Below the pieces are notes generated by a model. The model was given only the letters and a program-made list of their open reading frames with translations, ran no database searches and was not told the DNA's origin. The position numbers were made by a program, and so were the translations under genes. Of a DNA stretch of 29,308 bases, positions 3,841 through 25,447 are shown one piece after another. The stretch is from a bacterium. GTDB lineage: Bacteria > Chloroflexota > Dormibacteria > UBA8260 > Bog-877. Position 1 is the first letter of the stretch. Each line of letters opens with the position of its first letter. The stretch spans positions 1-29,308 of the forward strand of contig JAKABA010000035.1 of assembly GCA_021802115.1 (NCBI GenBank). Reading direction: 5' to 3'.

Positions 3841-3846
3841 TATGCT
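3841..3846 (+). promoter_or_regulatory. Extended -10 (TGG TATGCT) of the guaB3-guaA-purD unit
   Basis: TATGCT is preceded by TGG, an extended -10. Transcription would start near 3853, leaving a leader of about 55 nt before the TTG start at 3908. The weakly matching GGGACG about 16 nt upstream could act as -35. The ATG inside this box opens a longer reading frame, but that start would lie upstream of the transcript. Confidence 0.5.
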
Positions 3847-3852
3847 CAAACC

Positions 3853-3887
3853 CGGGGTGGCACACGTCAGGTGGTCCCCGTGCACCC
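3853..3887 (+). other. Leader RNA of guaB3 with two mutually exclusive stems
   Basis: GGGTG(G)CAC at 3855-3863 can pair with GTGCACCC at 3880-3887 (8 bp, one bulge). Alternatively CGGGG at 3853-3857 can pair with CCCCG at 3876-3880. The stems share bases, so only one can form. The ribosome site GGAGG (3894-3898) follows directly. It resembles no purine or guanine riboswitch core that I recognise. Confidence 0.3.
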
Positions 3888-3907
3888 GCATACGGAGGTG
3901 GCCCTGC

Positions 3908-5068
3908 TTGGACATTGAACTGGGACGAGGTAAGCGGGCGAGGCGGGCCTACGGCTTCGACGAGGTCGCCCTGGTCCCCGGCAAGGTGACCATCAACCCC
4001 GACGAGATCGACATCTCCTTGCAAATCGGCGAAGTTGAGATTCCGATCCCGATCCTGGCCGCCGCGATGGACGGGGTGGTCGACCCCCACTTCGCCCAGG
4101 AGATGGGCCACCTGGGCGGGGTGGCGGTCCTGAATTTGGACGGGATCAACTGCCGCTACGAGGACACGGCGGCCGTGTACGAGGAGATCGCCGAGGCGCC
4201 CCGCGAGAGGATCAACACCCTCCTCCAGGAGCTCTACCGGCAGCCGGTCAAGGACCAGTTGATATCCCGCCGGATTGAGCAGATCAAGGAGGCCGGCGTC
4301 ATCTGCGGGGTCTCGACCAGCCCCGCCGAGGCTGAGCATCGGCTTCCCATCGTGACCGAGGCGGGGGCCAACCTGTACTTCGTCCAGGGCACGGTGCTCA
4401 CGGCTCGTCACATCTCCCGCTCCTACCGACAGCTCGACTTCAGCCACCTGGCGGCTGCGGCGACGATCCCGGTGGTGGTGGGCAACTGCGTCGAGTACTA
4501 CACGGCCTTGGAGCTGATGGCGACCGGAGTCGACGGGATCCTGGTGGGGGTGGGCCCGGGCGCCGCCTGCACCACCCGTGGCGTACTTGGCATCGGGGTG
4601 CCCCAGGTGACCGCGACCGCCGACGTGGCCGCCGCTCGCAACGATCACCGGCGCACCGGCGGCAAGCCGGTCACGGTGATCACGGATGGCGGCATGAGGG
4701 TCGGCGGTGACGTCACCAAGGCGCTGGCTTCGGGAGCCGACGGGGTCATGATCGGCTCGGTATTCGCGTCGGCGCAGGAGGCTCCCGGGCGCGGCCACCA
4801 CTGGGGCATGGCGACTCCCGATCCCAACTTGCCCCGGGGGACCAGGATCAAGGTGGGCACCAGAGCCACGTTGAAGGAGCTCCTGGTGGGGCCGGCCCGA
4901 GTCGATGATGGCAGTCAGAACCTGGTGGGGGCGATCAAGTCGGCGATGGGGGTGTGCGGGGCCAGGACCATCGCGGAGTTCCAGGAGACCGAGATGGTGG
5001 TGGCCCCGGCCATCCTCACCGAGGGCAAGCTCTTCCAGCAGGCCCAGCAGGTCGGGATGGCTCGCTGA
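3908..5068 (+). CDS. guaB3: GuaB3-type IMP dehydrogenase (CBS-less)
   Basis: A 386-aa TIM-barrel protein of the GuaB3 branch of the IMPDH/GMP-reductase family. The N-terminus ([20 protein letters not shown]) and [19 protein letters not shown] are GuaB3 hallmarks. The catalytic loop [11 protein letters not shown] carries the Cys nucleophile (C221), and [24 protein letters not shown] is the phosphate-binding region. No CBS pair is present, unlike classical GuaB. The reaction expected is IMP + NAD to XMP. GuaB3 is often annotated only as IMPDH-related, but activity has been reported for a cyanobacterial member. Position 22 nt upstream of guaA supports a real role in GMP synthesis. TTG at 3908 is chosen because GGAGG lies 9 nt upstream and the family N-terminus begins there; the longer frame from 3842 starts inside the promoter. 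Confidence 0.9.
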
Positions 5069-5090
5069 TGGCCGGGAGCGGGGGCGGCCG

Positions 5091-6686
5091 ATGATCGCTG
5101 CCGTCCCGCCCGCGTCGGACCTGGCGTCGCAGCCGCCGCCTTCCAAGCTGGCCTTCGACAGCGTCCTGGTACTCGACTTCGGATCCCAGTACAGCCAGCT
5201 GATCGCTCGCCGGATCAGGGAGTTGAAGGTGTACTGCGAGCTGGTGCCCGGAACCACCTCAGCGGCCGAGATCAGCCGGCACCGGCCCCGCGGGCTGGTC
5301 TTGAGCGGGGGACCGGCGAGCGTCTATGACCAAGATGCGCTCCATCCGGACCCCGCCATTTACGACTTGGGTCTGCCGATCCTGGGGATCTGTTACGGCA
5401 TGCAGCTGCTGGCTCATGACCTCGGGGGCAGGGTAAAGCCCGCCACCAAGCGGGAGTACGGCCTGGCCTCGGTGGTGGTGGACAGCGACGACGGGCTGTT
5501 CGCGGGACTGCCCCAGGAGATGCCGGTCTGGATGAGTCACGGCGATGTGATCGAGCAGCTGCCGCCGGGCTATCGGTCTGTGGCTCACACCCTCAACAGC
5601 CCGGTCGCGGCCATGGCAGGGCCGGGTGGTCGGGTGGGCATCCAGTTCCACCCTGAGGTCGCCCACACCCCCCAGGGGGCGGCGATGCTGGCCAACTTCC
5701 TGTATCAGACCTGCGGTTGCCAGCCCAACTGGGAGGCGACCAGCTTCGTCGACCAGGCGATCGCCGAGATCCGGGATCGCGTCGGCGACTCCCAGGTGAT
5801 CTGCGCGCTCTCCGGAGGCGTCGACTCGGCGGTGGTGGCCACCCTGGTGCATCGTGCCATCGGGGATCAGCTCACCTGCATCTTCGTGGACAATGGCCTG
5901 CTGCGGCGAGGCGAGGCAGATCGCGTCATCGACGTGCTCACTCGCAACATGCGCATGAAGATCATCCGGGTGGAGGCCGAGGCCCGGTTCCTGGACGCTC
6001 TGGCCGGCGTGGTGGACCCCGAGGAGAAACGCCGGATCGTTGGCCGCGAGTTCATCGCCGCCTTCGAGGAGGAGACCGGGCGCCTGGGGGCGGTCCCCTT
6101 CCTGGCTCAGGGGACGCTCTACCCCGATGTCATCGAAAGCACCTCGGCGGACACCTTCGGGGCCCACAAGATCAAGACCCACCACAATGTCGGCGGCCTT
6201 CCCCTGGGAATGCGCTTCCAGCTGGTGGAGCCTCTCCGCTACCTCTTCAAGGATGAGGTGCGCCGGGTGGGCCGGGCCCTGGGCCTTCCCGACGACCTGG
6301 TCATGCGCCAGCCGTTCCCGGGGCCGGGGCTGGCGATCCGGATCATCGGCGCGGTCGACCGGGAGCGCCTGGAGACGGTCCGAGGCGCTGACTGGGTCGT
6401 CATCGACGAGATCAAGCACAGTGGGCTGTACGGCCAGGTCTGGCAGAGCTTCGCCATCCTGACACCGGTCAGCAGTGTGGGGGTGATGGGTGACTTCCGG
6501 ACCTACGCCAACGTGGTGGCGGTGCGAATCGTCACCTCCGAGGACGGCATGACCGCCGATTGGGCGCGAGTGCCCTACGACGTCCTGGCCGACATCAGCC
6601 GCCGGATCGTGAACGAGGTTCCGGGGGTCAACCGCGTCGTCTACGACATCAGCAGCAAGCCGCCCTCGACCATTGAGTGGGAGTGA
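5091..6686 (+). CDS. guaA: GMP synthase (glutamine-hydrolysing)
   Basis: A complete 531-aa GuaA that converts XMP to GMP with ATP and glutamine. The N-terminal class I amidotransferase domain begins at [20 protein letters not shown]. Its catalytic Cys is in ILGICYGMQ (C101), and His and Glu are in FHPEVAHT (H187, E189). The ATP-pyrophosphatase domain has the PP-loop [11 protein letters not shown] (about 239-249) and the markers [20 protein letters not shown] and [12 protein letters not shown], ending in the typical [10 protein letters not shown]. The start ATG 5091 follows a GGAGCGGGGG purine tract and leaves a 20-residue leader before the conserved core, slightly long for the family. It is cotranscribed with guaB3 and overlaps purD. 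Confidence 0.97.
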
Positions 6687-7966
6687 GCGCAGACCACGCC
6701 GCCCGGGGATTGCACGTCCTGGTGGTGGGTGGAGGGGGCCGGGAGCACGCCCTGGCCTGGGCCTGCTCCCGCAGCCCTCTGGTGAGCCGAGTGAGCTGCA
6801 GCCCGGGCAACCCGGGCACGGCGGCGCTGGGGTCCAACTGGAGCATCGCCGCCACTGATCCTGCAGGGATCACCCAGCTGGCCCGGTCGGAGGCGGTTGA
6901 CCTGGTCATCCTGGGTCCCGACGCAGCGGTGGCGGCCGGCGTCGGCGACGCCCTCGCGGCCGCCGGGATCCGCCGCTTCGGTCCCACGCGGGCCGCCGGC
7001 GAGCTGGAGACCAGCAAGGCGTTCGCGAAGCGGCTGATGGCAAGGGTGGGCATCGCCACGGCACCATTCAAGGTGTGCCGCGAACCTGACGAGGCGCTTC
7101 GCGAGCTCCGCCGCCGTGACGGCCCGGTGGTGGTGAAGGCGGATGGGCTGGCCCTGGGCAAGGGGGCGTTCGTCTGCCGGAGCCCGGCCGAGGCCGCGGC
7201 GGTCGTCGAGCGCCTGATGGTGAGGGCGGAGCTGGGCGACGCCGGCCGATCGGTGGTGATTGAGGACTGCCTCCAGGGTGAGGAGGTCTCCCTGTTCGCC
7301 ATCTGCGATGGCGAGCGGGCCGTGATGCTGCCCCCGGTCTGCGATTACAAGCGCGCTCTCGACGGTGATCTGGGGGCCAACACCGGGGGCATGGGCGCCT
7401 ACTCGCCGCCGCGGGTGGCCGGCGCGGAGGATTTGAACAGTCGGGCCCTGGCCGAGATAGTGACCCCCACCCTGGCGGAGATGGCGCGTCTGGGGCGGCC
7501 GTTCCAGGGCTGCCTGTACGTCGGCGGGATGCTGGTCGGGGATCGGATCAGCGTCCTGGAGTTCAACGTCCGCTTTGGGGACCCCGAGACGGAGGTGCTG
7601 CTGCCGCTTCTGGCCGACCCCGTGCCACTGCTCTGGGGGGCGGCTTCCGGTGAGCTGACCTCGCCGCTGGCCCCGGTCGGCCCGGCGGCGTCGGTGGGCG
7701 TGGTGGCGGTCAGAGCGCCATATCCCGAAGCGGTCCAGGCCGGCGGCCAGGTGGAGGGCCTGGAGGCCGCCGAGGCCCTCGGCTGTCTTATCTTTCAGAT
7801 GGGTACCAGCGCGGCCGCCACCGGTGGGGTCGAGGTTGGCGGCGGCCGAGTTCTGATCTGCGTCGGCACCGGGGTCGACCTTCCCGCCGCTCGAGGCGCG
7901 GCCTATGCGGGGCTGGGCCAGATCAACTTCGCGGGGATGCGCTACCGCTCCGACATCGCCGCCTGA
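6683..7966 (+). CDS. purD: Phosphoribosylamine-glycine ligase (GAR synthetase)
   Basis: A 427-aa ATP-grasp ligase for the second step of de novo purine synthesis: phosphoribosylamine + glycine + ATP to GAR. Seen: the N-terminal loop [15 protein letters not shown], the ATP-grasp strand [15 protein letters not shown], the [23 protein letters not shown] motif and the Mg site [22 protein letters not shown] at 6683 overlaps the guaA stop as GTGA, a translational-coupling arrangement; GTG at 6677 is the alternative, two codons longer. purD sits with the guanine-branch genes, while the other pur genes are about 9 kb downstream. Confidence 0.95.
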
Positions 7967-10148: not shown

Positions 10149-11981
10149 ATGCCTGCTGTCGGACTGATCGAGAGCTGCCTCCGTCACGGGCAGCAGACAC
10201 TGCTCTCCAGCCGCCTGAGAACCCGTCACATGGTCACTCTGGCCGAGGAGCTGAACGCCAGCGGTCTGGCCGGCCTGGAGGTGTTCGGGGGAGCCACCTT
10301 CGGGGTCGCCCTGAGCAATCTTCGAGAGGACCCGTTCGAGCGGCTGCGGGCAGTCCGGGCCGCCACCCAGCTGCCCCTGTACGGCCTGATTCGGGGCCAG
10401 TCGCTGGTGGGGAGCCGGCCGGTCCCGGACGAGGTGGTCGACCTCTTCATCGCCACCGTCGCGGAGCTTGGGCTGGACGTATTTCGCTGCTTTGATCCCC
10501 TCAACGACCTGCGAAACCTGGCCCGGGTGGTGGCCGCTGTCCGGGCCTCCGGCAAGCGTGCCGAGGCCGCCCTGGTTTACACCGAGAGCCCAGTCCACTC
10601 CGCCGACGGCTTCGTGCGCCTGGGCGTGGAGCTGGCCGGGATGGGCTTCCAGAGCCTCAGCCTCTTCGATCCCGCCGGAATGCTGGGTGCCGGCAGCGCC
10701 CGGGCAATCGTGTCCGGGCTGGTCAAGGAGACCGGCCTTCCCGTGAGTGTCCACTGCGCCACCATCACCGGCCAGGCGGCGTTTGCCTACCTGGCGGCCG
10801 CCGAGGCGGGCGCCAGCTCGCTCGATGTCTGCCTGTCGCCGCTCGCCGGAGGCGCCTCGCTCCCCGGCACGGAGGGCGTCCTGGCCGCGCTGCGGGGTAC
10901 CGAGATGGCTCCCCGGGTCGACCCCAGCGCAGTCCTGGCCGCCGCCGACACTCTGGACGCGCTGATGCCCCTGTACGAGCTGGTGGCCGACCCCAGCGGC
11001 TGGCAGCTGGACTCGAGCACGCTGCGCACCCAGATGGCTCCGTCGGTCCAGCAGCACCTGCTCTGGGAGTGCGCGGCTCAGGGGGTCGGGGAGCGGATCC
11101 CCGCGGTGGTGGAGGAGATCGCCCGGGTCCGGGCCGACATGGGCTATCCAGCCTTGATCAGCCCGGTGGCGGAGGTGGTGGTGAGTCAGGCGGTGGCGAA
11201 CGTGGCCTCGCAGGACCGCTACCTCATCGTGGGGCAGGACTTGAAGGACTACTTCCTGGGCCTCTTCGGAGCTCCTCCCGGGCCTGCCGACCCCGAGATC
11301 CGACGCCTGGTGATCGGCACCGAGGAACCGATCACGGTCCGCCCTGGCGATGTCCTGGAGCCGATGCTCGCCGATGCCCGTCGCCGCATGGTCAAGCACC
11401 AGTTGGGGGATCCCTCAGACGAGCAGCTGCTGGAATTCGTCCTCTTCCCGGAGGCGACTGCGGCCACCATGAGAGGAGACCTGCAGGGTGAGCGCCTCGG
11501 GGACGAGCCCGAGCTGGCGGCGGCCGAGGGGGTCCAGGCGGCGGCGGTCGTGGATGGGGGCGACCTCAGTGAGCCGGTCGGGGACGCTGCTGCGATCCCG
11601 GCCCCGACCCTCCCGGCTCCCGGCCCGGCCCCGGTGGCCGAGGAGACCGTCCCCTCGCGAGAGTTCACAGTCGAGGTCGACGGTGAGGTGTTCGAGGTCA
11701 AAGTGGTGGCCCGGGACGCGGGCTTCGCCGTCTCGGGCGTCGCTCCGCGACCGCCGGCAACGTCTGGAGGCGGCGCCGTGAAGGCTCCCATGCAGGGCCT
11801 GATCGCAAGAATCCCGGTCAAGGTGGGCGACCATGTCGAGGTTGGCCAGACGGTCGCGGTCCTGGAGGCGATGAAGATGCAGAACGACATCCCCTCGGAC
11901 CTCGCCGGCGTCGTCCAGGCGGTCAACGTGGCCGAGGGGCAGGTGGTGAGCCGGGGCGACTCCCTGGTGACCATCGCCTGA
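10149..11981 (+). CDS. Pyruvate/oxaloacetate carboxyltransferase-like protein fused to a biotin carrier domain, metal site lost
   Basis: A 610-aa protein with the architecture of PycB/OadA: a carboxyltransferase TIM barrel (about 1-300), the helical conserved-carboxylase region (about 300-440), an Ala/Pro-rich linker (about 460-520) and a C-terminal biotinyl domain with EAMKMQN (biotinyl Lys K576). Many barrel motifs remain: LEVFGGATF, EDPFERLR, RGQSLVG, DVFRCFDPLND. The active site does not. RDAHQS reads RHGQQT (metal-ligand Asp is H13). IKDMAG reads LFDPAG (carboxylated Lys is F173). HCHATTG reads HCATITG (second His is A204). PGGMLTNL reads APSVQQHL (catalytic Thr is Q302). Only H202 of the metal site is kept. 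It is followed 11 nt later by an intact biotin carboxylase, so the biotin is probably carboxylated; the acceptor is unknown. Standard pyruvate carboxylation seems excluded. Confidence 0.87.
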   Translation: MPAVGLIESCLRHGQQTLLSSRLRTRHMVTLAEELNASGLAGLEVFGGATFGVALSNLREDPFERLRAVRAATQLPLYGLIRGQSLVGSRPVPDEVVDLFIATVAELGLDVFRCFDPLNDLRNLARVVAAVRASGKRAEAALVYTESPVHSADGFVRLGVELAGMGFQSLSLFDPAGMLGAGSARAIVSGLVKETGLPVSVHCATITGQAAFAYLAAAEAGASSLDVCLSPLAGGASLPGTEGVLAALRGTEMAPRVDPSAVLAAADTLDALMPLYELVADPSGWQLDSSTLRTQMAPSVQQHLLWECAAQGVGERIPAVVEEIARVRADMGYPALISPVAEVVVSQAVANVASQDRYLIVGQDLKDYFLGLFGAPPGPADPEIRRLVIGTEEPITVRPGDVLEPMLADARRRMVKHQLGDPSDEQLLEFVLFPEATAATMRGDLQGERLGDEPELAAAEGVQAAAVVDGGDLSEPVGDAAAIPAPTLPAPGPAPVAEETVPSREFTVEVDGEVFEVKVVARDAGFAVSGVAPRPPATSGGGAVKAPMQGLIARIPVKVGDHVEVGQTVAVLEAMKMQNDIPSDLAGVVQAVNVAEGQVVSRGDSLVTIA

Positions 11982-11992: not shown

Positions 11993-13441
11993 GTGTTCGA
12001 CACCGTTCTGGTGGCCAACCGCGGGGAGATAGCAGTCCGCGTGATCCGAGCCTGTCGCGACCTCGGGCTGCGCTCGGTGGCGGTCCACTCGGAGGCCGAC
12101 CGGGGCGCGTTTCACACCCGCCTCGCCGACGCTGCCGTGGAGATCGGGCCCAGCCCGGCCACCCAGTCCTACCTCAACCTGGACCGGCTCATAGCCGCCG
12201 CCAAGGAGAGCGGTGCCCAGGCGGTCCACCCCGGCTACGGGTTTCTGTCCGAGAGCCCGCGCCTGGCCCAGGCCTGCGTAGACAACGGCCTGACTTTGAT
12301 CGGCCCTCCGGCGGATGCCATGGCCGCCATGGGCGACAAGGTCACCGCCCGGGGCAGGATGCAAGCCGCTGGGGTCCCGGTGGTGCCGGGGACGGACGCC
12401 ATCTCGGATCCGGGGGCCGCCATCGAGGCCGCGCACCATATCGGTTACCCGATCCTGGTCAAGGCCTCCGCAGGTGGTGGGGGCATTGGCATGCGCGCGG
12501 CCCGGGACGAGGATGAGCTGAGGTACGCCATTCAGGTCTGCAGCGACGCGGCTGCCCGCTCATTCGGAGACCCGAGGGTGTTCCTGGAGCGGCTGGTCGA
12601 CGAGCCCAGGCACATCGAGATCCAGGTGCTGGCCGACTCCCATGGCAACACGATCCATCTCGGCGAGCGGGAGTGCTCCATCCAGAGGCGCCACCAGAAG
12701 CTGCTCGAGGAGAGCCCCTCCACCGCGGTCACAGATGAGATGCGGCAGCGCATGGGGGAGGCCGCCATCAAGGCCGCCCGCGCGGTCGGCTACGTCAACG
12801 CGGGCACGGTGGAGTTCATCGAGTCCCGCGGCTCCTTCTACTTCCTGGAGATGAACACCAGGCTCCAGGTGGAGCATCCGGTGACCGAGCTGGTCACCGG
12901 TGTGGACCTGGTGGTGGCCCAGTTGCGGATCGCGTTGGGCGAGCCCCTGCCGCTCACCCAAGAGCAGGTGCGGCAGGATGGCTGGGCGATCGAGTGCCGA
13001 GTCAACGCCGAGGACCCCTGGGAGGACTTCCTACCCACCCCGGGCCGGGTCGTCACCTACCACGAGCCCTCGGGGCCCGGAGTCAGGGTGGACAGCTCCC
13101 TGGCCGGGCCGGGCGTGGTCAGCCCGTTCTATGACCCCATGATCGCCAAGCTGGTGGTCCACGGGGCGACCCGCGAGCAGGCGGCGGCGAGGGCCCGTCG
13201 GGCACTCTACGAGTACTGGATCGGGGGCATCACCACCAACATTCCGTACCATGCGGTCCTGCTCGAGGACCCCGACTTTCTGGCGGGCCGGCTCACGACA
13301 GAGTTCATCCCCACCCATCCCGACCTGATGGGCAGGGCCCGCGACTGGCAGCGGCAGCAGGCCCAGGTGATGGCCCAGTTCGGAACCGACCGGCGCCGGC
13401 TGGCGGCGATGGCGGCGGCGCTGGCGGCGGCGGGAGCCTAA
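11993..13441 (+). CDS. Biotin carboxylase (AccC/PycA type)
   Basis: A 482-aa ATP-grasp enzyme that carboxylates biotin on a carrier protein using ATP and bicarbonate. Seen: the N-terminal ANRGEIAVRVIRAC, HPGYGFLSE, the glycine-rich lid KASAGGGGIGMR, the catalytic block ERECSIQRRHQK and EMNTRLQVEHPVTE with the catalytic Arg. All known key residues look intact, in contrast to the partner carboxyltransferase domain. The GTG start lies 11 nt after the upstream stop, so the two genes form an operon; the obvious carrier is the BCCP domain of that protein. Whether it also serves acetyl-CoA or another acyl-CoA carboxylase cannot be told from this window. Confidence 0.93.
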   Translation: MFDTVLVANRGEIAVRVIRACRDLGLRSVAVHSEADRGAFHTRLADAAVEIGPSPATQSYLNLDRLIAAAKESGAQAVHPGYGFLSESPRLAQACVDNGLTLIGPPADAMAAMGDKVTARGRMQAAGVPVVPGTDAISDPGAAIEAAHHIGYPILVKASAGGGGIGMRAARDEDELRYAIQVCSDAAARSFGDPRVFLERLVDEPRHIEIQVLADSHGNTIHLGERECSIQRRHQKLLEESPSTAVTDEMRQRMGEAAIKAARAVGYVNAGTVEFIESRGSFYFLEMNTRLQVEHPVTELVTGVDLVVAQLRIALGEPLPLTQEQVRQDGWAIECRVNAEDPWEDFLPTPGRVVTYHEPSGPGVRVDSSLAGPGVVSPFYDPMIAKLVVHGATREQAAARARRALYEYWIGGITTNIPYHAVLLEDPDFLAGRLTTEFIPTHPDLMGRARDWQRQQAQVMAQFGTDRRRLAAMAAALAAAGA

Positions 13442-16552: not shown

Positions 16553-16606
16553 ATGATCCTCGAGCCGCTCCAGCGCTCAGCCCGGGCCCTCGTGAATGAT
16601 CGATAG
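16553..16606 (+). CDS. Possible 17-codon leader peptide overlapping the purB start
   Basis: ATG at 16553, about 5 nt after the predicted transcript start, opens a 17-codon frame (MILEPLQRSARALVNDR) ending in TAG at 16604-16606. Its end overlaps the purB start (ATG 16596) by 11 nt in another frame. purB itself has no clear Shine-Dalgarno sequence, so translation may be delivered by reinitiation from this frame. It has no homology I recognise. Confidence 0.3.
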   Translation: MILEPLQRSARALVNDR

Positions 16607-17936
16607 GTACGCACCCCCTGACCTGCGCGCCCTGTGGTCCGATGAGGCCAGGGTTGAGCTCTGGTTGCAGGTCGAGTTGGCGGTTTGCCAGGCGCGCGCC
16701 GACCTGGGGGAGATAGCGCCTCCGGAGATGGCCGCCCTGAAGCGTGCCACTCCGCCCAGCCTGACCCGGCTGAGGGAGCTGGAGGCGGAGCAGGGGCACG
16801 ACCTGGCCGCCTTCGTGAGCGCGGTCCAGGAACAGCTGGGGCCCGAGGGCCGGCTGCTCCACCTGGGCCTCACCAGTCAGGATGTGGTCGACACCACCCT
16901 GGCGCTCCAGCTGCGCCGGGTCGCCGAGATCCTGGCCCAGGATCTGGCCCGTCTCGACCAGGCGCTGGCGGACCTAGCCCGGCGCCACCGCGGCACACCC
17001 ATGATGGGCAGGACCCACGGCATGCACGCCGAGCCACTGACCTTCGGTTTCGTGATGGCCAACCACCTGGACGAGCTGCGCCGGGCCGCAGAGCGGCTCC
17101 GGGCCGCCACCGCCGAGGTGGTGGTGGGCAAGGTCTCGGGCACCGTGGGGACCCATGCGACCGTCTCTCCAGAGGTGGAACGCCTGGCCCTGGCCGGCCT
17201 TGGACTGCCGGCGGCGGCGATCACGACCCAGGTGGTGGCGCGGGATCGCCATGCGTCCTTCCTGTGCGCGGTGGCGCTGGTGGGCGCGTCCTGCGAGCGC
17301 CTGGCGACCACCCTGCGCCACCTTCAGCGCACCGAGGTGGGCGAGGTCGAGGAGCCCTTCGCGGCGCGCCAGAAGGGCTCCTCGGCCATGCCCCACAAGC
17401 GCAACCCGATCCGGCTTGAGCAGGTCTGCGGGCTGAGCCGCCTGCTCCGAGGCTGGGCGGTGGCCGGACTCGAGGATGTCGCCCTCTGGCACGAACGGGA
17501 CATCTCCCACTCGTCGGTGGAGCGGGTGGCCCTACCCGACGCCACCATGGCCCTGGGCCACATGGTCCGCACCCTCACCTCCGTCCTGGGGGGCTTGGAG
17601 GTCGACCGCGAGGCCATGCTGGCGAACGTCGAGCGACGAGGTGGCCTGGCTCGGAGCCAGCAGGTCCTGCTGGCGCTGCTGGGCCGCGGTCAGCAGCGTG
17701 AGGAGGCCTACCGCCTAGTCCAGCGGCTGGCTCACGAGGCCGATCACGAGGGCGGGGACTTTCGGGCCGGCTGCCTGGCCTCGCCGGAGCTCGGCCGGCT
17801 GCTGACCGCGGCCGACATCGAGGAGGCGCTCGCCCTTGACCGCTACCTGGGGGGGATCGACGCCAGCTTCCAACGGCTGGGGTTGCTGCCCGCCACATCC
17901 GAGGCCGGCGACCCACCGGCCCAGGGTACCCGCTGA
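16596..17936 (+). CDS. purB: Adenylosuccinate lyase
   Basis: A 446-aa member of the fumarase/aspartase superfamily. It acts twice in purine synthesis: SAICAR to AICAR + fumarate, and adenylosuccinate to AMP + fumarate. Seen: the N-terminal RYAPPDLRALWSDEAR, LGLTSQDVVDT, the catalytic-base region MGRTHGMHAEPLTFG (H141) and the mobile signature loop GSSAMPHKRNP (261-271). First gene of the long pur operon. ATG 16596 gives the expected family N-terminus (MIDRYAPPDL). The stop TGA shares its A with the purC ATG. Confidence 0.95.
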   Translation: MIDRYAPPDLRALWSDEARVELWLQVELAVCQARADLGEIAPPEMAALKRATPPSLTRLRELEAEQGHDLAAFVSAVQEQLGPEGRLLHLGLTSQDVVDTTLALQLRRVAEILAQDLARLDQALADLARRHRGTPMMGRTHGMHAEPLTFGFVMANHLDELRRAAERLRAATAEVVVGKVSGTVGTHATVSPEVERLALAGLGLPAAAITTQVVARDRHASFLCAVALVGASCERLATTLRHLQRTEVGEVEEPFAARQKGSSAMPHKRNPIRLEQVCGLSRLLRGWAVAGLEDVALWHERDISHSSVERVALPDATMALGHMVRTLTSVLGGLEVDREAMLANVERRGGLARSQQVLLALLGRGQQREEAYRLVQRLAHEADHEGGDFRAGCLASPELGRLLTAADIEEALALDRYLGGIDASFQRLGLLPATSEAGDPPAQGTR

Positions 17937-18814
17937 TGGCCGGCGGGGAGGGCTTGGCGGAGGTGGAACTGCCCCAGCTGCCGCTCTTCCGCCGTGGCAA
18001 GGTGCGCGACACCTTCGACCTGGGTGATCGACTGCTGATGGTGGCGACCGACCGGCTCTCGGCCTTCGACTGCGTGCTGCCCGACCTGATCCCTGACCGG
18101 GGCCGGGTGCTCACCACCATGTCCCGGTTCTGGTTTGCCCAGACCGCCGCGACGGTTCACAACCACCTCAGGGAGGACGACCCCGCGGCCATCCCGGCCG
18201 CCAGCTACTCGCAGCTGGCAGGCAGGATGATGTTTGTCGCCAAGGCGGACCGGGTCGACATCGAGTGCGTCGTCCGTGGTTACCTGGCCGGCAGCGGGTG
18301 GCAGGAGTACCTGGAAGCCGGGACGCTCGCCGAGGAGGAGCTGCCCTCGGGGTTGGCCTTCGGCTCGCGGCTCCCCGAGCCGCGCTTCACGCCGGCGACC
18401 AAGAGCGATTCCGGCCACGATCAGAACATCTCGCGGGCCCAGCTGCGAGAGCTGGTGGGCTCCGAGCTGGCCGCCCAGCTGGAAGGCACCAGCCTTCAGC
18501 TGTACCAGTTCGGGGCGGCGCGCTGCCTGGAGGCGGGCCTGATCCTGGCCGACACCAAGTTCGAGTTCGGATTCGTCGACGGGAGGCTGACCGTGATCGA
18601 TGAGATGCTGACTCCGGACTCATCCCGGCTCTGGGAGGCGGGCGACGCCCAAGGGTCCACCCATGGCTTCGACAAGCAACCGGTGCGTGACTATCTGCTC
18701 AGCAGCGGCTGGAACCGGCTCGCCCCCGGGCCCCGCCTGCCCAAGGCCCTGGTGAGCGAGACCAGACTGCGGTACCTGGAGGTATGCCGACGGATAACCG
18801 GCATCGATATATAG
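17936..18814 (+). CDS. purC: SAICAR synthetase
   Basis: A 292-aa enzyme that ligates aspartate to CAIR using ATP, forming SAICAR. The length is of the longer (about 300 aa) PurC type. Seen: RRGKVRDTFDLGDRLLMVATDRLSAFDCVLPD (nucleotide loop and the DR-SAFD motif), ECVVRGYLAGSGW, DTKFEFGF and IDEMLTPDSSR. ATG 17936 overlaps the purB stop by one base. The 3' end overlaps the proposed purS start by 31 nt. Confidence 0.95.
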   Translation: MAGGEGLAEVELPQLPLFRRGKVRDTFDLGDRLLMVATDRLSAFDCVLPDLIPDRGRVLTTMSRFWFAQTAATVHNHLREDDPAAIPAASYSQLAGRMMFVAKADRVDIECVVRGYLAGSGWQEYLEAGTLAEEELPSGLAFGSRLPEPRFTPATKSDSGHDQNISRAQLRELVGSELAAQLEGTSLQLYQFGAARCLEAGLILADTKFEFGFVDGRLTVIDEMLTPDSSRLWEAGDAQGSTHGFDKQPVRDYLLSSGWNRLAPGPRLPKALVSETRLRYLEVCRRITGIDI

Positions 18815-19059
18815 CCGAGGTTGTGGTCACCCTCAAGCCCGTGGTGAACGACCCCCAGGGCCTGGTGGTGACCCAGGCACTGCACGCTCTGGGCTATCCC
18901 GAGGTGGGCGCGACCAGGGTGGGCAAGTTCATCAGCCTTGACCTGGAGGGTGCCGAGGAGGGCCAGGTGCGCGCCCGGGTGGAGGAGATGTGCCGGCGGC
19001 TACTCCGCAACGAGGTGATCGAGGACTACCGCTTCCAGCTCCGGCGGGAGGAGCCATAG
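18784..19059 (+). CDS. purS: Phosphoribosylformylglycinamidine synthase, PurS subunit
   Basis: A small subunit (91 aa) of the three-part FGAM synthetase, bridging PurQ and PurL. The family core is clear: EVVVTLKPVVNDPQGLVVTQALHALGY and VGKFISLDLEG. ATG 18784 lies inside purC, giving a 31-nt overlap and a basic leader (MPTDNRHRYI) before the first beta strand. GGAGGT abuts this ATG without the usual spacing, so a later non-ATG start is possible but would cut into the first strand. purQ follows 1 nt later. Confidence 0.9.
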   Translation: MPTDNRHRYIAEVVVTLKPVVNDPQGLVVTQALHALGYPEVGATRVGKFISLDLEGAEEGQVRARVEEMCRRLLRNEVIEDYRFQLRREEP

Positions 19060-19060
19060 C

Positions 19061-19765
19061 TTGCCGGTGCGCTTTGGCATAGCCGTCTTTCCGGGCACCT
19101 GGTCGGAGCGTGACTGCAGTCATGCGGTATCCCTGGCGGGTGGCGAGTCCACCTTCCTCTGGCACGCTGACCGAGACCTCAAGGGCAGTGACTGCGTGGT
19201 CCTGCCAGGGGGCTTCGCCCATGGCGACTACCTGCGCGCCGGGGCGATCGCGCGTTTCGCTCCGCTGATGGACGCGGTCGCCGAGCATGCCCGGGCGGGG
19301 GGTCTGGTGCTGGGAATCTGCAACGGCTTCCAGATCCTCTGCGAGGCCGGCCTGCTGCCGGGCGCGCTGCTGCGCAACCGGGGCCTTCAGTTCCTCTGCC
19401 AGCCGACCTGGCTGCGGGTGGAGACCGTCTCCACCCGGTTTCTGGCGGGGCTCGAGGTCGGCAACACCCTGGAGATCCCCATCTCCCATGGAGAGGGCCG
19501 GTACTACGCCGACCCGGCCACCCTGGCCCAGCTGGAAGCGGAGTCCAGAGTGGCCCTTCGCTACTCCGGTCCCACCGGGGAGCTGGCCGACCAGTACAAC
19601 CCCAACGGCTCCCTGAATCAGATCGCGGGCATCCTCAACGAGCAGCGCAACGTGCTGGGCATGATGCCCCATCCGGAGCGGGCCTGCGAAGCGCTGCTGG
19701 GGTCTAGTGACGGGCTGGCGCTCTTCTCCGGAGTGGTCCGCGGCCTGGTCGCGGCGGGCCGATGA
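19061..19765 (+). CDS. purQ: Phosphoribosylformylglycinamidine synthase, glutaminase subunit PurQ
   Basis: A 234-aa class I glutamine amidotransferase that supplies ammonia to PurL. Seen: the N-terminal FGIAVFPGTWSERD, the oxyanion strand VVLPGGFAHGDYLRAGAIA, the nucleophile elbow LGICNGFQIL (C87) and the catalytic MMPHPERA (H204, E206). The TTG start one base after the purS stop gives the expected N-terminus, with GGAGGAG ending 6 nt upstream. The stop overlaps the purL start as ATGA. Confidence 0.94.
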   Translation: MPVRFGIAVFPGTWSERDCSHAVSLAGGESTFLWHADRDLKGSDCVVLPGGFAHGDYLRAGAIARFAPLMDAVAEHARAGGLVLGICNGFQILCEAGLLPGALLRNRGLQFLCQPTWLRVETVSTRFLAGLEVGNTLEIPISHGEGRYYADPATLAQLEAESRVALRYSGPTGELADQYNPNGSLNQIAGILNEQRNVLGMMPHPERACEALLGSSDGLALFSGVVRGLVAAGR

Positions 19766-21999
19766 CTCAGGCCGTTCCCGAGGCTCCCACCCAGGAGGAG
19801 CTGCGCGAGATCGCACTGACCCGCGCCGAGTACGAGTCGGCGTCCGCCCAGCTGGGGCGCGCCCTCAATCCTCTGGAGCTGGGCATGCTGGGCGCGATGT
19901 GGTCGGAGCACTGCTCCTACAAGACCTCCAAACCCCTGCTCCGGCAGCTGCGTTCCACGGGCGCCCGGGTGGTGCTGGGGCCCGGCGAGAACGCCGGGGT
20001 GGTGGATCTCGGAGGCGAGCTGCTCTGCTGCTTCAAGATCGAGTCCCACAACCACCCGAGCGCCATTGAGCCGGTCCAGGGGGCGGCCACCGGGGTGGGG
20101 GGCATCCTCCGCGACGTCTTCGCCATGGGGGCCCGTCCGGTCGCGCTCCTCGATGCGATCAGGTTCGGCGACCTGGACCAGTCGCTCCAGCGCCACCGCT
20201 TCGCCCGGGTGGTGCAGGGGATCGGCTTCTACGGCAACTGCATCGGGGTGCCCACGGTGGGAGGCGAGACCTACTTTGACTCCGCCTACTCCGACAACTG
20301 CCTGGTCAACGCCATGTGCGTGGGGCTGGCGGAGCGTTCGCAGCTGGTGCGGGCGGTCGCCTCCGGCCCGGGCAACCCGGTGATGCTGGTTGGAGCCGAC
20401 ACCGGGCGCGACGGCATCCACGGGGCTACCTTCGCCTCGGTGCAGCTGGACGAGAGCGCCGACGAGCGGCGGCCGGCGGTGCAGGTCGGCAACCCGTACC
20501 TGGAGAAGTGCCTGCTCGAGGCCTGCCTCGAACTGTGTGGCCATCCGGCCCTGGTGGGGCTCCAGGACTGTGGGGCGGCCGGGCTCACCAGCAGCTGCGC
20601 GGAGATGGCTCACCGGGGCGGGGTGGGAATCGAGATCGACGTGGCGCAGGTGGGCCGGCGGGAGCTGGGGATGTCCCCCTACCAGGTGATGCTCAGCGAG
20701 TCCCAGGAGCGGATGGTGCTGGTGGTGGAGAGCGGACAGGAGGACGCGGTGCGGCAGATCTTCGCCCGCTGGGACCTTCACAGCGACATCATCGGCCGAG
20801 TGATCTCCGAGCCCGAGCTGCGGATTCTCGACGGCCAGGTGCGGGTGGCCACGCTGCCGCTGGGGATTCTGGTTGACGGCTTCGCGGAGCGCAGGCCGCC
20901 CTCCCGCCGGCCAATCGACCTTGACTCGCGGCTGGCCGCGGACCCGCTGAGCAGCCCGGCGCCGTGGTCGCTGGAGGAGTCCTGGTTGCGGTTGCTGAGC
21001 TCCCCCAACTGCGGCGAGACCGGCTGGATATTCCGGCAGTACGACCACCAGGTGGGCGACGACACCGTGCGTGGCCCCGGCGGCGATGCCGCCGTGCTCC
21101 GGATCAAGGGCCGCAGCGACGGCCTGGCCATGACCGTGGACGGGGCCCACCGCTCGGCCGCGCTCGACCCCCGCCAAGGAACCGCGCTGGCGGTCGCCGA
21201 GGCGGTCAGGAACCTGGCCGTGGTGGGCGCCGAGCCGCTGGCGCTGACCAACTGCCTGAACTTCGGCGACCCGGACCAGCCGGAGGTCATGTGGCAGATG
21301 GAGGAGGCGGTTGGGGGCCTCGCCGAGGCCGCGCTGGCCTTTGGGATCCCCGTCGTCAGCGGCAATGTCAGCCTCTACAACGACTTCCAGGGCAACGGAA
21401 TCCCGCCCACTCCGATGGTCGGCCTGGTGGGCCAGGTGCCCGCGGTCGCTGTCTCCACCGGGCTCGGGTTCCGGGCGGCCGGTGACCAGATCTACCTGAT
21501 CGGGCCGGCCGGGGTCGAGCTGGCGGGGTCCGAGTACCAGCGCCTGGCCCACGGTGCGGTGTTGGGAACGCCACCCCGCCTCGACGTGGCCGCGGAACTG
21601 GCGGCCGCCGCCGCCATCAGGGACCTGGTGCGCGGTTCGGTCCTGAGCTCCGCCCACGATTGCTCCCTGGGCGGACTGGCGGTGACGCTGGCCGAGTCCT
21701 GCATCGCCGGCCAGCTGGGCGCCGTCGTGGACTCCCCGCTCGCTCTCCCGAGCCAGGCTCCAACCGGCTGGGCCTGGGGAGTGCTCTTCGGGGAAACATC
21801 TGGTCGCTACCTGGTCAGCGTCGCGCCAGATCTGATCGACCGCCTGGCCGCGGTCTGCCAGGGCCACGGGGTGCCCGCCCTGAAGCTCGGAGTCGTTGGG
21901 GGCAGGTCGATCTCAATTGGGGGCCTGGCGGAGATCGCCCTGGAGGCTGCGACCAAGGCGAGCGCTGGGGGCCTGGCCGGCTTCATGGAGCGCGGCTGA
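19762..21999 (+). CDS. purL: Phosphoribosylformylglycinamidine synthase, PurL subunit
   Basis: The 745-aa small-type PurL (Bacillus-type, needs PurS and PurQ), which makes FGAM from FGAR, ATP and ammonia. Seen: LNPLELGMLGAMWSEHCSYK, FKIESHNHPSAIEP, GGILRDVFAMGARP, GLQDCGAAGLTSSCAEMA and, in the second half, the repeated PurM-like fold with NCLNFGDPDQPEVMWQ, SGNVSLYN and SSAHDCSLGGLAVTLAE. The start overlaps the purQ stop (ATGA). Length and motifs are normal. Confidence 0.96.
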   Translation: MTQAVPEAPTQEELREIALTRAEYESASAQLGRALNPLELGMLGAMWSEHCSYKTSKPLLRQLRSTGARVVLGPGENAGVVDLGGELLCCFKIESHNHPSAIEPVQGAATGVGGILRDVFAMGARPVALLDAIRFGDLDQSLQRHRFARVVQGIGFYGNCIGVPTVGGETYFDSAYSDNCLVNAMCVGLAERSQLVRAVASGPGNPVMLVGADTGRDGIHGATFASVQLDESADERRPAVQVGNPYLEKCLLEACLELCGHPALVGLQDCGAAGLTSSCAEMAHRGGVGIEIDVAQVGRRELGMSPYQVMLSESQERMVLVVESGQEDAVRQIFARWDLHSDIIGRVISEPELRILDGQVRVATLPLGILVDGFAERRPPSRRPIDLDSRLAADPLSSPAPWSLEESWLRLLSSPNCGETGWIFRQYDHQVGDDTVRGPGGDAAVLRIKGRSDGLAMTVDGAHRSAALDPRQGTALAVAEAVRNLAVVGAEPLALTNCLNFGDPDQPEVMWQMEEAVGGLAEAALAFGIPVVSGNVSLYNDFQGNGIPPTPMVGLVGQVPAVAVSTGLGFRAAGDQIYLIGPAGVELAGSEYQRLAHGAVLGTPPRLDVAAELAAAAAIRDLVRGSVLSSAHDCSLGGLAVTLAESCIAGQLGAVVDSPLALPSQAPTGWAWGVLFGETSGRYLVSVAPDLIDRLAAVCQGHGVPALKLGVVGGRSISIGGLAEIALEAATKASAGGLAGFMERG

Positions 22000-22041
22000 A
22001 TTGCGGCAGCATCGAGTCGAGGCCGCCGGGCCGCTGGCGGT

Positions 22042-22047
22042 TATGCT
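22042..22047 (+). promoter_or_regulatory. Possible internal -10 (TATGCT) before purF
   Basis: TATGCT is followed by seven bases and an in-frame GTG at 22055. The spacing is the same leaderless pattern as for the GDH-like gene. It would give purF its own promoter within the operon. The same bases contain the ATG at 22043, so the two readings exclude each other as start signals. Confidence 0.3.
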
Positions 22048-23545
22048 GGCGGAGGTGATCGACATCAACGGCCACCCGGGGCATCCCCGGGCGGAGAGCC
22101 GTGCCGCTGGCGTCGGCGACGACAAGCTGCACGAGGCTTGCGGCGTGTTCGGCGTGTACGCCCCGGGGGGCAACGTGGCCAACCTCTGCTACCTGGGCAT
22201 CTACGCGCTCCAGCATCGGGGCCAGGAGTCGGCGGGGATCTGCGTTTCAGACGAGAAGCAGTTGCGGGTGCACAAGGACATGGGCCTGGTCTCGCAGGTC
22301 TTCTCCGAGGAGTCCCTGAGCCGCTTGCCGGGGTCCTGGGGGCTGGCTCACACCCGCTACTCCACCACCGGGTCGTCCCACGCCAGCAACGCCCAGCCCT
22401 TCACATTCGAGCACGGCCAGCTGGGCCCGGTCGCGATCTCCCACAACGGCAACCTCACCAACGCTCAGGCGCTCCGCAACGCCCTTGTGGAGGAGGGCTA
22501 CGCCTTCGCCACCAGCAGCGACACCGAGGTTCTGGCGGGTCTCCTGGCACGGACTCCTGGGGAGCGCTTGGAGGTAGTCCTGCAGCGCTCGTTGCCCCGG
22601 GTCCTCGGCGCCTACTCGCTGGGGTTCCTGACCCGGGACAGCCTGGTGGCAGCGCGGGACGAGCTGGGGCTGCGGCCGCTTTGCATCGGCCGTCTGGGAG
22701 ACCTTCGCGCCCCTGGCGGCGAGGGTTACATAATCGCCAGTGAGACCTGTGCCCTGGACGTGGTGGGCGCCCGGCTGGTGCGTGAGGTGCGGCCTGGCGA
22801 GATCGTCACGATTGACGCCAGCGGGCTGCACAGCGTCAGCTTCGGGCAGCGGCGCCCGCCGGCGATGTGCTCGTTCGAGTTCATCTACTTCGCGCGTCCC
22901 GACTCTGTGATCCAGAACCGTAGCCTCTACGAGGTCCGCTTGGCGATGGGCAGGCGCCTGGCCGAGGAGTCGCCCGTGGACGGCGACGTGGTCATCCCGC
23001 TGCCCGACTCGGGAACCCCGGCCGCGATCGGATTCGCCCAGGCCAGCGGGATTCCCTTTGCCGAGGGCATGATCAAGTCGCGCTACATCAATCGCACCTT
23101 CATCCAGCCCCAGCAGGGGATGCGGGACGCCGGGGTGAGATTGAAGTTCAACCCCATGCCCCACGTCTTGGCGGGCAAGCGGGTGGTGCTGGTGGACGAC
23201 TCGATCGTGCGGGGCTCGACATCCCGCCAGATCGTGGAGGCGCTGCGCCGGGCGGGGGCGCGCGAGGTGCACATGCGGGTGGCCTCGCCGCCGATTCGCT
23301 ACCCCTGCTTCATGGGGATCGACATCGCCAGCCGCAGCGAGCTGATCGCCGCCGGACGCAGCTCCGACGAGGTGGGTGCCATCATCGGGACGGACTCCCT
23401 GGCGTATCTCAGCCTGGATGGGCTGCGTATCGCCCTGCATTCCCGCCCCGAGACGGCTGGCTTCTGTTTCGCCTGCTTGGATGGCGTCTACCCGCTCCAG
23501 GTTCCCCAGCAGCTGGAGATGGACAAGCTGGCGCTCGAAGGATGA
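22043..23545 (+). CDS. purF: Amidophosphoribosyltransferase
   Basis: The first committed enzyme of purine synthesis: PRPP + glutamine to phosphoribosylamine. About 500 aa. A 32-residue propeptide precedes the catalytic Cys of EACGVFGVYA (C33), so self-processing is expected. Ntn-type glutaminase motifs follow (QHRGQESAGI, AHTRYSTTG, HNGNLTNA). The PRPP loop is VVLVDDSIVRGSTSRQ. Cysteines at MCSFEF, YPCFMGID and FCFACLDG match the 4Fe-4S cluster positions of the Bacillus-type enzyme, so oxygen sensitivity is likely. ATG 22043 is used; GTG 22055 (preceded by TATGCT and GGAG) is an equally possible start. The stop overlaps the ATG of a 69-codon frame. Confidence 0.94.
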   Translation: MLAEVIDINGHPGHPRAESRAAGVGDDKLHEACGVFGVYAPGGNVANLCYLGIYALQHRGQESAGICVSDEKQLRVHKDMGLVSQVFSEESLSRLPGSWGLAHTRYSTTGSSHASNAQPFTFEHGQLGPVAISHNGNLTNAQALRNALVEEGYAFATSSDTEVLAGLLARTPGERLEVVLQRSLPRVLGAYSLGFLTRDSLVAARDELGLRPLCIGRLGDLRAPGGEGYIIASETCALDVVGARLVREVRPGEIVTIDASGLHSVSFGQRRPPAMCSFEFIYFARPDSVIQNRSLYEVRLAMGRRLAEESPVDGDVVIPLPDSGTPAAIGFAQASGIPFAEGMIKSRYINRTFIQPQQGMRDAGVRLKFNPMPHVLAGKRVVLVDDSIVRGSTSRQIVEALRRAGAREVHMRVASPPIRYPCFMGIDIASRSELIAAGRSSDEVGAIIGTDSLAYLSLDGLRIALHSRPETAGFCFACLDGVYPLQVPQQLEMDKLALEG

Positions 23546-23751
23546 ACGGACCATGCGGCCGGGTGCCTTTTCCCGAGCGCGGCTCTCATGAGGCCGGCGC
23601 CAACGGCTTGGCCCTGGCGGGAGCAGGCGGGATTGGGGCGACTGGATTGCGTCCCCGTGGTGACCTTCTCGGCCTCGGGCGGGTCGCGGTCGTGCCGGGT
23701 CTCGCCAGGTCGCTCGGGCCCGCGGCGGGTCCGCTCCCGGTGACGGCTTGA
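23542..23751 (+). CDS. 69-aa ORF bridging purF and purM
   Basis: I do not recognise this protein. It is rich in Gly, Ala, Leu, Pro and Arg (MNGPCGRVPFPERG at the start), with no clear domain or membrane helix. What suggests a gene is position: its ATG overlaps the purF stop as ATGA (23542-23545), and its stop overlaps the purM start as TTGA (23748-23751). It thus fills the only sizeable gap (202 nt) in an operon whose other junctions mostly overlap. It may be a true small protein or serve only to carry ribosomes to purM. Coding composition is not decisive. Confidence 0.35.
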   Translation: MNGPCGRVPFPERGSHEAGANGLALAGAGGIGATGLRPRGDLLGLGRVAVVPGLARSLGPAAGPLPVTA

Positions 23752-24815
23752 ACGAGACCCCCCCGGTGGGGGGCCCGCCCACGAGTGACCTGGGGCCGAC
23801 CCAATACGCACAGGCGGGAGTGGACCGCAACCGTGCCCAGTCGGCCATCGCCCGGGTGGCCGCGCTGGCGGCGACCACCCATCTGCCCTCCCTGATGGCG
23901 GGGATCGGCCCCTTCGCTGCGGTCTGGCGCCTGCCCGAGGACCTGCCTCGTGACGCGGTCCTGGTCTCATCCACCGATTCGGTGGGGACCAAGACCAAGG
24001 TGGCCGTGGCGATGGGCGACCACCGCGGGATCGGCCAGGACATCGTCAACCACTGCGTCAACGACGTGCTCACGACCGGGGCCACGCCGCTGTTCTTCCT
24101 GGACTACTTCGCCACCGGCAGGATTGAGGCTGAGGTCCTGGGCCAGCTCGCGGAGGGGATGGCCCTCGCCTGCCGGGAGGCAGGCTGCTCCCTGGTTGGC
24201 GGCGAGACCGCCGAGATGCCCGGTCTGTACGGGATCGGAGACTATGACCTAGCCGGCTTCCTGGTGGGCATGGCCTCGGCTTCCAACCTATTGGGACCCG
24301 CCCTGGTGCGCGAGGGCGACATCCTGCTGGGGCTGCCGTCAACCGGTCTGCACACCAACGGCTTCTCCCTGGTGAGACACCTGTTGACGCAGCGGGACCT
24401 GGCCTATCGGACGGTCCTGCCTGGCACCGACCGACCCCTGGGAGAGCTGCTGCTGGCCGCTCATCGGTCCTATCTGGCGCCCGTCCTGGCCCTGCGCGAG
24501 CTGGGCGAGGTGCACGCTCTGGCTCATATCACCGGGGGCGGGATCGTGGAGAACCTGCCTCGGGTGCTGCCGGACGGATTGGCCGCCCGGATCGAGACTC
24601 GCAGCTGGCAGGTGCCCAGCCTCTTCAGCGCCCTCCAGGAGCTGGGCGGCATTGCCCCAGATGAGATGTGGCGGACGTTCAACATGGGCGTGGGCATGAT
24701 CTGCATCGTGCCCGGCGCCACCGCCGATCTCTCTGCGCCGTTGACCGGGCACGGCTTCTTTCGGATGGGGGAGGTGATCGCCCGCAGCGGTTCGGACCGG
24801 GTGATCCTCCGCTGA
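23748..24815 (+). CDS. purM: Phosphoribosylformylglycinamidine cyclo-ligase (AIR synthetase)
   Basis: A 355-aa enzyme that closes FGAM to AIR with ATP. Seen: TQYAQAGVDRNR at the family N-terminus, SSTDSVGTKTKVAVAM (the nucleotide signature), DIVNHCVNDVLTTGATPLFFLDYFATG, VGGETAEMPGLYG, GLPSTGLHTNGFSLVR and AHITGGGIVENLPR. The TTG start at 23748 is the first in frame and overlaps the stop of the preceding small ORF; GTG at 23766 is an alternative. The leader before the conserved core is a few residues longer than usual. Confidence 0.93.
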   Translation: MNETPPVGGPPTSDLGPTQYAQAGVDRNRAQSAIARVAALAATTHLPSLMAGIGPFAAVWRLPEDLPRDAVLVSSTDSVGTKTKVAVAMGDHRGIGQDIVNHCVNDVLTTGATPLFFLDYFATGRIEAEVLGQLAEGMALACREAGCSLVGGETAEMPGLYGIGDYDLAGFLVGMASASNLLGPALVREGDILLGLPSTGLHTNGFSLVRHLLTQRDLAYRTVLPGTDRPLGELLLAAHRSYLAPVLALRELGEVHALAHITGGGIVENLPRVLPDGLAARIETRSWQVPSLFSALQELGGIAPDEMWRTFNMGVGMICIVPGATADLSAPLTGHGFFRMGEVIARSGSDRVILR

Positions 24816-24838
24816 CCGACCAGCCAGCACGACGCGGG

Positions 24839-25447
24839 GTGGGGGTGCTGGTCTCCGGGCGTGGCAGCAACCTGGCCGCCCTGGTCTCCGCCGCCAGGGT
24901 GCCCGGCTTCCCAGCCGCGGTGGTGGCGGTGGCGTCCAATCGGACCACCTGCCCGGCGCTGGCGGTGGCCCGGTCGGCCGGGATCCCCTGCCAGGCATTT
25001 CCGGCCCGCGACTACGCGGGGGATTCCATGGCCAGGGACGCCGCCATGGCCGATTGGCTGGGGGAGAAGAAGGTTGAGATCCTGGTCCTGGCCGGGTACG
25101 ACAGGATCCTGGGAGACCCTCTCCTGAGCGCCTTCGCCGGGCGGATCCTCAACCTGCACAACAGCCTGCTGCCCGCCTTCGCGGGCACCATGAGCGCGGT
25201 GGAGCAGGCCCTCGACTACGGGGTCAAGGTGACCGGCTGCACGGTCCACATCGTCGATCCCAAATCCGTCGACGGTGGTCCGATCGTGCTGCAGGCGGCG
25301 GTGGAGGTCAGGGACGACGACACCCCCGCCAGTCTGCTCCAACGAGTCCACGAGCAGGAGTGGCGAATCCTGCCCCGGGCGGTCGAGCTGCTGGCCAGCG
25401 ATGGGCTGCTGGTGGAGGGCCGCCGGGTCCGGCGCCGGCCATGTTGA
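24839..25447 (+). CDS. purN: GAR transformylase (folate-dependent)
   Basis: An enzyme of about 202 aa transferring a formyl group from 10-formyl-THF to GAR. Seen: the N-terminal GVLVSGRGSNLAAL, ILNLHNSLLPAFAG (catalytic Asn and His kept, with Asn in place of the usual Pro) and TGCTVHIVDPKSVDGGPIVLQ (catalytic Asp). The start is uncertain. GTG 24839 makes a very short N-terminus. CTG at 24812, overlapping the purM stop as CTGA, would give a more natural one (starting TDQPARRG). The end overlaps purH by 7 nt. Confidence 0.9.
   Translation: MGVLVSGRGSNLAALVSAARVPGFPAAVVAVASNRTTCPALAVARSAGIPCQAFPARDYAGDSMARDAAMADWLGEKKVEILVLAGYDRILGDPLLSAFAGRILNLHNSLLPAFAGTMSAVEQALDYGVKVTGCTVHIVDPKSVDGGPIVLQAAVEVRDDDTPASLLQRVHEQEWRILPRAVELLASDGLLVEGRRVRRRPC

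Follow-up and report, generated by a model that had tools for sequence, protein, structure and literature searches.

A PycB-like biotin protein of Dormibacteria with a fixed loss of catalytic residues and a possible role as shared biotin carrier

Results

Genes and domains at the locus

We analyzed a stretch of 29,308 nucleotides (the window; contig JAKABA010000035.1, assembly GCA_021802115.1, class Dormibacteria) that carries a purine gene cluster in two parts on the forward strand. The upstream part holds guaB, guaA, and purD (3842..7966; names partly by reading and synteny), and the downstream part holds purB, purC, purQ, purL, purF, purM, purN, and purH (16596..26979; translations read); the corresponding genes of G001, the window's nearest genome among those compared, were confirmed as members of the PurC and PurH families. 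Between the two parts lie a gene for a 610-amino-acid PycB/OadA-like protein, here PycB' (10149..11981, forward strand), and directly 3' of it a biotin carboxylase gene (11993..13441, forward strand; 482 amino acids). The carboxylase is complete in its three Pfam domains (Biotin_carb_N, CPSase_L_D2, and Biotin_carb_C), in agreement with the initial annotation; its best NCBIfam match, PRK08654.1, scores 685 bits, below the cut-off of 739. Two adjacent deoC-like genes on the reverse strand (8423-9160 and 9177-9917) occupy the slot held by purE in related families (f2-f4, below), the second falling narrowly below the TIGR00126 cut-off (116.5 against 117.3). Past the carboxylase, also on the reverse strand, are a TolB-like propeller protein (13503-15839; weak TolB match) and a sigma-factor-like gene (15832-16614; named by reading only), whose placement after the biotin carboxylase is kept class-wide. 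In one genus (g14; L057, 8608-12289), about 3.8 kb of unrelated open reading frames separate PycB' from the biotin carboxylase. A repetitive protein rich in Lys, Arg, Ala, and Thr, with near-identical short repeats, is encoded on the reverse strand at 3-1010 and is open at the window start.

PycB' comprises an HMGL-like (beta/alpha)8 barrel (residues 4-267; 10158..10949; PF00682), a PYC_OADA domain (residues 309-444; 11073..11480; PF02436), and a biotin carrier domain (residues 544-609; 11778..11975; PF00364), in which Lys576 of the motif EAMKMQ is the predicted biotin attachment site (11874..11876). The protein scores 461 bits against the general PycB domain model PRK09282.1, over its cut-off of 402, and in the same profile search falls short of the thresholds set for the equivalog models of oadA, PycB, and pyruvate carboxylase.

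A threonine in the carboxyltransferase barrel of these enzymes has a catalytic role, and the PDB titles of Thr-to-Ala mutants agree with this; residue 302 of PycB' corresponds to Staphylococcus aureus T908. The metal-ligand set (Asp, carboxylated Lys, and two His) was taken from PMC9581989, and general background on the enzyme family from PMC3199775. Aligned to solved relatives, PycB' is altered at four of the five catalytic positions: His replaces the ligand Asp at residue 13 (D13H; 10185..10187), Phe the carboxylated Lys at residue 173 (K173F; 10665..10667), Ala the second ligand His at residue 204 (H204A; 10758..10760), and Gln the Thr/Ser at residue 302 (T/S302Q; 11052..11054). The first ligand His is retained at residue 202 (10752..10754), leaving one of four metal ligands. 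These are the four changes that the initial annotation had mapped by eye, and a shift of the ligands to other positions was ruled out by alignment together with structural superposition. A replacement metal site built from His13 and His202 was rejected as well, position 13 being Gln in five of the 12 readable rows of the window's own family. Most of the rest of the barrel had been described as kept, and the fold is intact: the AlphaFold model (mean pLDDT 86.4) has all eight strands and superposes on OadA and on transcarboxylase 5S with an rmsd of 2.0-2.4 Å. To judge from alignment and model, the fold is preserved and the known metal chemistry is absent.

Fixation and stepwise loss of the catalytic site

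Alterations of this kind might mean that PycB' is one damaged or decaying copy, since its catalytic residues are indeed missing. We compared it with 120 listed homologues of 348 found, which are 44-100% identical to PycB'; those with names are for the most part annotated as pyruvate carboxylase subunit B of Dormibacteria or Dormibacterota, and a few carry the names of other taxa. In these 120 plus the window protein, the canonical residue at 13, 173, 204, or 302 occurs in 0 of 121 rows (five gaps at 13), and the biotin Lys576 is present in 120 of 121, the remaining row having a gap. The same rows retain Gln16 throughout and Arg82 of the RGQ motif (10392..10394, kept in the window protein) in 99 of 121, with Arg82 lost in 20. 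The former catalytic residues are thus missing across homologues and not in one protein only, so PycB' is no single damaged copy. With the motifs fixed in the 120 listed homologues down to 44% identity, the biotin site and partner carboxylase intact, and PycB' retained in most genomes, we regard decay of one copy as refuted, its probability being close to nil. The initial annotation had asked whether the substitutions were fixed in a clade and had called the biotin site perfect, and both points stand.

The genomes around G001 fall into four families of one class, f1-f4, with the window in f1, and the site differs among them in a graded manner. Twelve PycB proteins from the same phylum, but not from this class, carry the full set of Asp, Lys, both His, and Ser302. 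The seven f4 rows retain Asp and both His, six of them also Lys, and every one shows Glu or Asp at residue 302; in the f4-like named loci L191, L192, and L197, RDAHQS, IKD, and the two His are likewise present and 302 alone differs. The six f3 rows retain Asp and both His, with Lys replaced by Glu (K173E) and Ala at 302. Finally, in f1 (13 rows) and f2 (28 rows) the canonical residues at 13, 173, 204, and 302 are all missing from every readable row, the Pro at position 13 of G030 and G035 being an artefact of misaligned N-termini, and Arg82 is lost from 22 of 26 readable f2 rows. Ser/Thr302 is absent from every f1-f4 row examined. In a tree made by a quick method, f1 and f2 are joined, and f3, f4, and the class are each grouped, each with 100 SH-aLRT. 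The loss of the catalytic site is fixed and stepwise across the class.

What remains of the pocket was examined over residues 3-440 by comparing 31 canonical sequences (12 from outgroup genomes and 19 from 80 loci) with 67 degenerate f1/f2-type sequences (34 of the 120 homologues, 32 from genomes, and the window), leaving out G019, G022, G029, and G040 and the partial G009, G030, G034, and G035. Of 129 positions at which at least 90% of the canonical sequences share one residue, 69 are retained in the f1/f2-type sequences, 47 fall below 80% there, former catalytic positions included, and 13 have become fixed to a different one (H15Q, T21S, D27H, E44D, W46F, W63F, Q139E, M175P, P181A, S207T, G298P, N303H, and Q307E). 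These 13 re-fixed positions suggest that the barrel has a retained role, which speaks partly against a pure scaffold. The barrel might be a metal-free carboxyltransferase for another small acceptor, or might release CO2 or bicarbonate locally from carboxybiotin. Ten residues near the old site (R12, G14, Q15, Q16, F46, G47, G48, D174, T207, and G208) are invariant in 45 aligned homologues, which fits such a function, and H15Q, W46F, S207T, and N303H are among the re-fixed changes. Yet the former catalytic positions differ between subclades, and gene content points to no acceptor except a purine one, so we consider this reading improbable, if still a serious rival.

Carboxylase genes of related genomes

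The gene inventory covers 61 related genomes, which are metagenome-assembled and mostly less than 95% complete (18 in f1 and 43 in f2-f4). The PYC_OADA domain was found in 56 of the 61, with a single match in 55 and two in G002. The search for a second, canonical PycB that the initial annotation had proposed therefore came out negative in 55 of 56 positive genomes, and a second enzyme standing beside PycB' was ruled out on this ground. Biotin carboxylase is present in 54 of 61 genomes, with exactly one match in 47 of these, and 42 of the 47 lie, by coordinates, on the contig of PycB'; G005, G020, G026, G036, G039, G042, and G044 have two to five matches. Acyl-CoA carboxyltransferases are widespread: PF01039 occurs in 60 of 61 genomes, and a full-length AccA-like match (E below 1e-96) in all 28 genomes searched for one.

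Biotin/lipoyl domains were also searched in 28 of the 61 genomes, and every listed domain was read in G001, G008, G014, G022, and G029 (84-91% complete). Among the domains listed in these five, a loose motif scan, which carriers near a stop codon could escape, turned up no further biotin carrier; their other biotin/lipoyl domains (six each in G001, G008, and G014, two each in G022 and G029) are of the lipoyl type with a TDK/TEK motif, and a third match in G029 was taken to be PycB'. Elsewhere, further biotin-like matches appear in the f1 genomes G005, G007, and G010, and a second small carrier of the ESMKMEI type in at least six f2-f4 genomes (G019, G024, G027, G045, G051, and G052). By coordinates, this small carrier has a PF01039 gene no more than 1 kb away in G024, G027, G045, and G052.

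The inventory also bears on the possibility that PycB' is still a pyruvate carboxylase, working without the usual ligands. It is the sole PYC_OADA protein in most genomes, Gln16 is invariant, and most of the 121 rows (120 of the 348 homologues plus the window) keep Arg82. Moreover, PEPC was found in 14 of the 28 genomes searched for it; if PycB is dead, the remaining 14 would have no anaplerotic carboxylase among those searched. Against this, Asp, Lys, the second His, and Ser/Thr are all gone, and even Arg82 has been lost in a sixth of those rows and in most f2 proteins. The initial annotation had argued from sequence that pyruvate could not be the usual acceptor; the lost ligands and Ser/Thr support this, and pyruvate carboxylation by PycB' is probably absent, its persistence being very unlikely.

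Purine context

In f2-f4, a recurring gene order, with gaps and contig breaks, is guaB-guaA-purD-purE-PycB'-biotin carboxylase, then the TolB-like and sigma-like genes on the opposite strand, then purB-purC-purQ-purL. In 32 of 39 f2-f4 loci, purE precedes PycB' on the same strand, at a gap of up to 151 bp in 22 and at 0.6-2.6 kb in 10. It is absent from the PycB' stretch examined in G026, G034, and G044, and no PurE match was found anywhere in G019, G022, G029, or G040. PurK scored over cut-off in 0 of 43 f2-f4 genomes, against 16 of 18 in f1, each time beside PurE, with fragments in the other two f1 genomes. The f1 pair sits away from the purine cluster (G001, contig C216, L084; G013, contig C29, L083), and purE is not in the slot upstream of PycB' in the f1 loci read. 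The idea that PycB' stands in for PurE as well as PurK in the genome of the window was dropped, as f1 genomes have the pair elsewhere. This purine context, the absence of purK from sister families, and the stepwise loss lie outside the argument of the initial annotation.

One explanation for this context, which we hold only tentatively, is that the PycB' barrel of f2-f4 may form, together with the biotin carboxylase, a biotin-dependent AIR carboxylase. In the altered barrel, AIR would take up the carboxyl group of carboxybiotin, itself made by the biotin carboxylase, either at C4 or at N5, where the acceptor is an amine and no metal would be required; the neighboring PurE would complete the step from the resulting N5-CAIR or CAIR, and the module would have replaced PurK. 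For f1, the corresponding and likewise doubtful scenario is that a PurE-PurK pair was acquired and the module survived as a biotin carrier, as in purine-less relatives. The position of purE and the distribution of PurK fit this explanation, as do the loss of Ser/Thr302 in all f1-f4 rows examined and the re-fixed pocket; the 12 PycB loci outside the class have none of the purine genes tested. The f2 and f4 PurE proteins read also appear to be class I by motif.

Other observations weaken the AIR carboxylase explanation and leave it unlikely overall. The f1 genomes own PurE and PurK elsewhere and yet retain PycB' with a conserved pocket. Nor was the module lost with purine synthesis: the four PurE-less genomes (G019, G022, G029, and G040; 98, 91, 84, and 65% complete) also lack PurC and PurH and have probably lost de novo purine synthesis, but they retain PycB', with a complete or partial biotin carboxylase. 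(Further genomes lack PurC, namely G010, G041, and G048, or PurH, namely G030, G034, and G044; these have other purine genes or low completeness.) An Actinobacteria metagenome-assembled genome (L201, 7001-15710) has an intact PycB-biotin carboxylase pair followed by a FAD protein, purA, purD, purE, and purB; with an unaltered PycB site beside purine genes, neighborhood alone is no proof of changed function. Finally, archaea have class-I-like PurE without PurK, for which PMC3261824 gives other explanations. The longest PycB' branches or stem in the tree belong to three of the purine-less genomes (G040; G022 with G029). In a test for relaxed barrel evolution in purine-less lineages, made with 54 of 66 rows picked for coverage and not including G040, the ratio of barrel to biotin carboxylase branch length is 2.2 in the purine-less G022 and G029 and 1.28 in the purine-less G019, but among genomes with purine genes it reaches 2.6-2.7 in G031, G032, and G046.

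Discussion

Our best explanation, in which we place about even confidence, is that PycB' may be a pyruvate carboxylase beta subunit turned into a biotin carrier that acyl-CoA carboxylases share, its pyruvate barrel now retired. The intact domains and motif suggest that the adjacent biotin carboxylase puts CO2 on the biotin of Lys576. The barrel, to judge by its lost ligands and Ser/Thr, would no longer pass the carboxyl group to pyruvate and may persist as a docking scaffold for both the biotin carboxylase and the swinging arm. The gene inventory points to AccA/AccD- and PccB-type carboxyltransferases encoded elsewhere as likely recipients in trans, with malonyl-CoA and related compounds, at the start of fat synthesis, as the expected products. 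Against this proposed partnership, the carboxyltransferase genes are not adjacent to PycB' in the loci read.

The shared-carrier explanation accords with a ligand loss that is fixed while the fold and biotin site stay intact, with the single PYC_OADA protein and single biotin carboxylase of most genomes, with the negative carrier search in the five genomes read, and with the retention of PycB' and its biotin carboxylase in genomes without PurE, PurC, and PurH. Several observations count against it: 13 pocket and barrel positions are re-fixed, beyond the needs of a mere scaffold; some f1 and at least six f2-f4 genomes keep PycB' along with further biotin-like matches or a carrier; half of the genomes searched for PEPC would have no anaplerotic carboxylase among those searched; the genomes are mostly incomplete assemblies; and the purine-cluster linkage is left without account. 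The initial annotation had offered either a regulatory or scaffold domain or a new acceptor with metal-free chemistry; the gene inventory favors the scaffold, and the metal-free acceptor stays as its rival. For the two-subunit enzyme, the authors of PMC5059739 consider that perhaps just one carboxyltransferase domain per beta dimer is active, the other beta subunit giving the biotin arm, and a carrier-only barrel may find its precedent there.

Similar barrels occur outside the class. Desulfoluna limicola (L263, 6842-8917) encodes a PycB-like biotin protein whose barrel lacks all five residues, with replacements other than those of PycB'; a PF01039 gene precedes it at a distance of 255 bp. All five positions are altered in 10 of 10 close homologues of this type (P0122-P0131), nine of which have the biotin domain, P0131 being partial. 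In a Clostridia metagenome-assembled genome (L230, 5159-8769), a PF01039 gene, a biotin carrier, and an altered PycB-like barrel stand side by side, the barrel lacking Asp, Lys, the first His, and Ser/Thr and retaining the second His. The window biotin carboxylase had no match in the L263 locus (15.5 kb examined) or the L230 locus, so these proteins may be decarboxylases or transcarboxylases. Both cases would fit, by analogy, a carrier working with an acyl-CoA transferase, the pyruvate half being retired. A plasmid search with the Desulfoluna protein gave only matches below 60% identity, oxaloacetate decarboxylase genes among the best.

In an uncultured soil-bacterial class, a core metabolic enzyme has thus shed its active site stepwise while keeping its cofactor arm and partner, and Desulfoluna makes at least one separate fixed case of a ligand-less barrel. 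Since many of these proteins bear the name pyruvate carboxylase subunit B, metabolic models that rely on names would count on oxaloacetate being formed where it probably is not. If the AIR carboxylase explanation were true, there would be a third purine carboxylation route beside PurK with PurE and the CO2-using PurE; no paper naming either this protein or a biotin-dependent AIR carboxylase was among those listed by our literature searches.

Among known systems, PycB of Methylobacillus flagellatus (5ks8) shares with PycB' the domain order, the fold (best PDB match), the fused biotin domain, and the adjacent biotin carboxylase gene; PycB' differs in lacking the Asp, Lys, second His, and Thr/Ser and in sitting in a purine cluster. 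Transcarboxylase 5S of P. shermanii (1rqh) has the ligands, whereas PycB' has a fused biotin domain and an adjacent biotin carboxylase. Compared with OadA (2nx9), PycB' has lost ligands and is followed by a biotin carboxylase gene. With PurK, the N5-CAIR synthetase, the candidate likeness is an ATP-driven supply of carboxyl groups beside PurE, but the barrel is unrelated in sequence and the system uses biotin rather than direct ATP-grasp chemistry. AccB/YngHB-like carriers share the proposed job and the EAMKM motif with PycB', in which the carrier domain is instead mounted on a whole PycB body.
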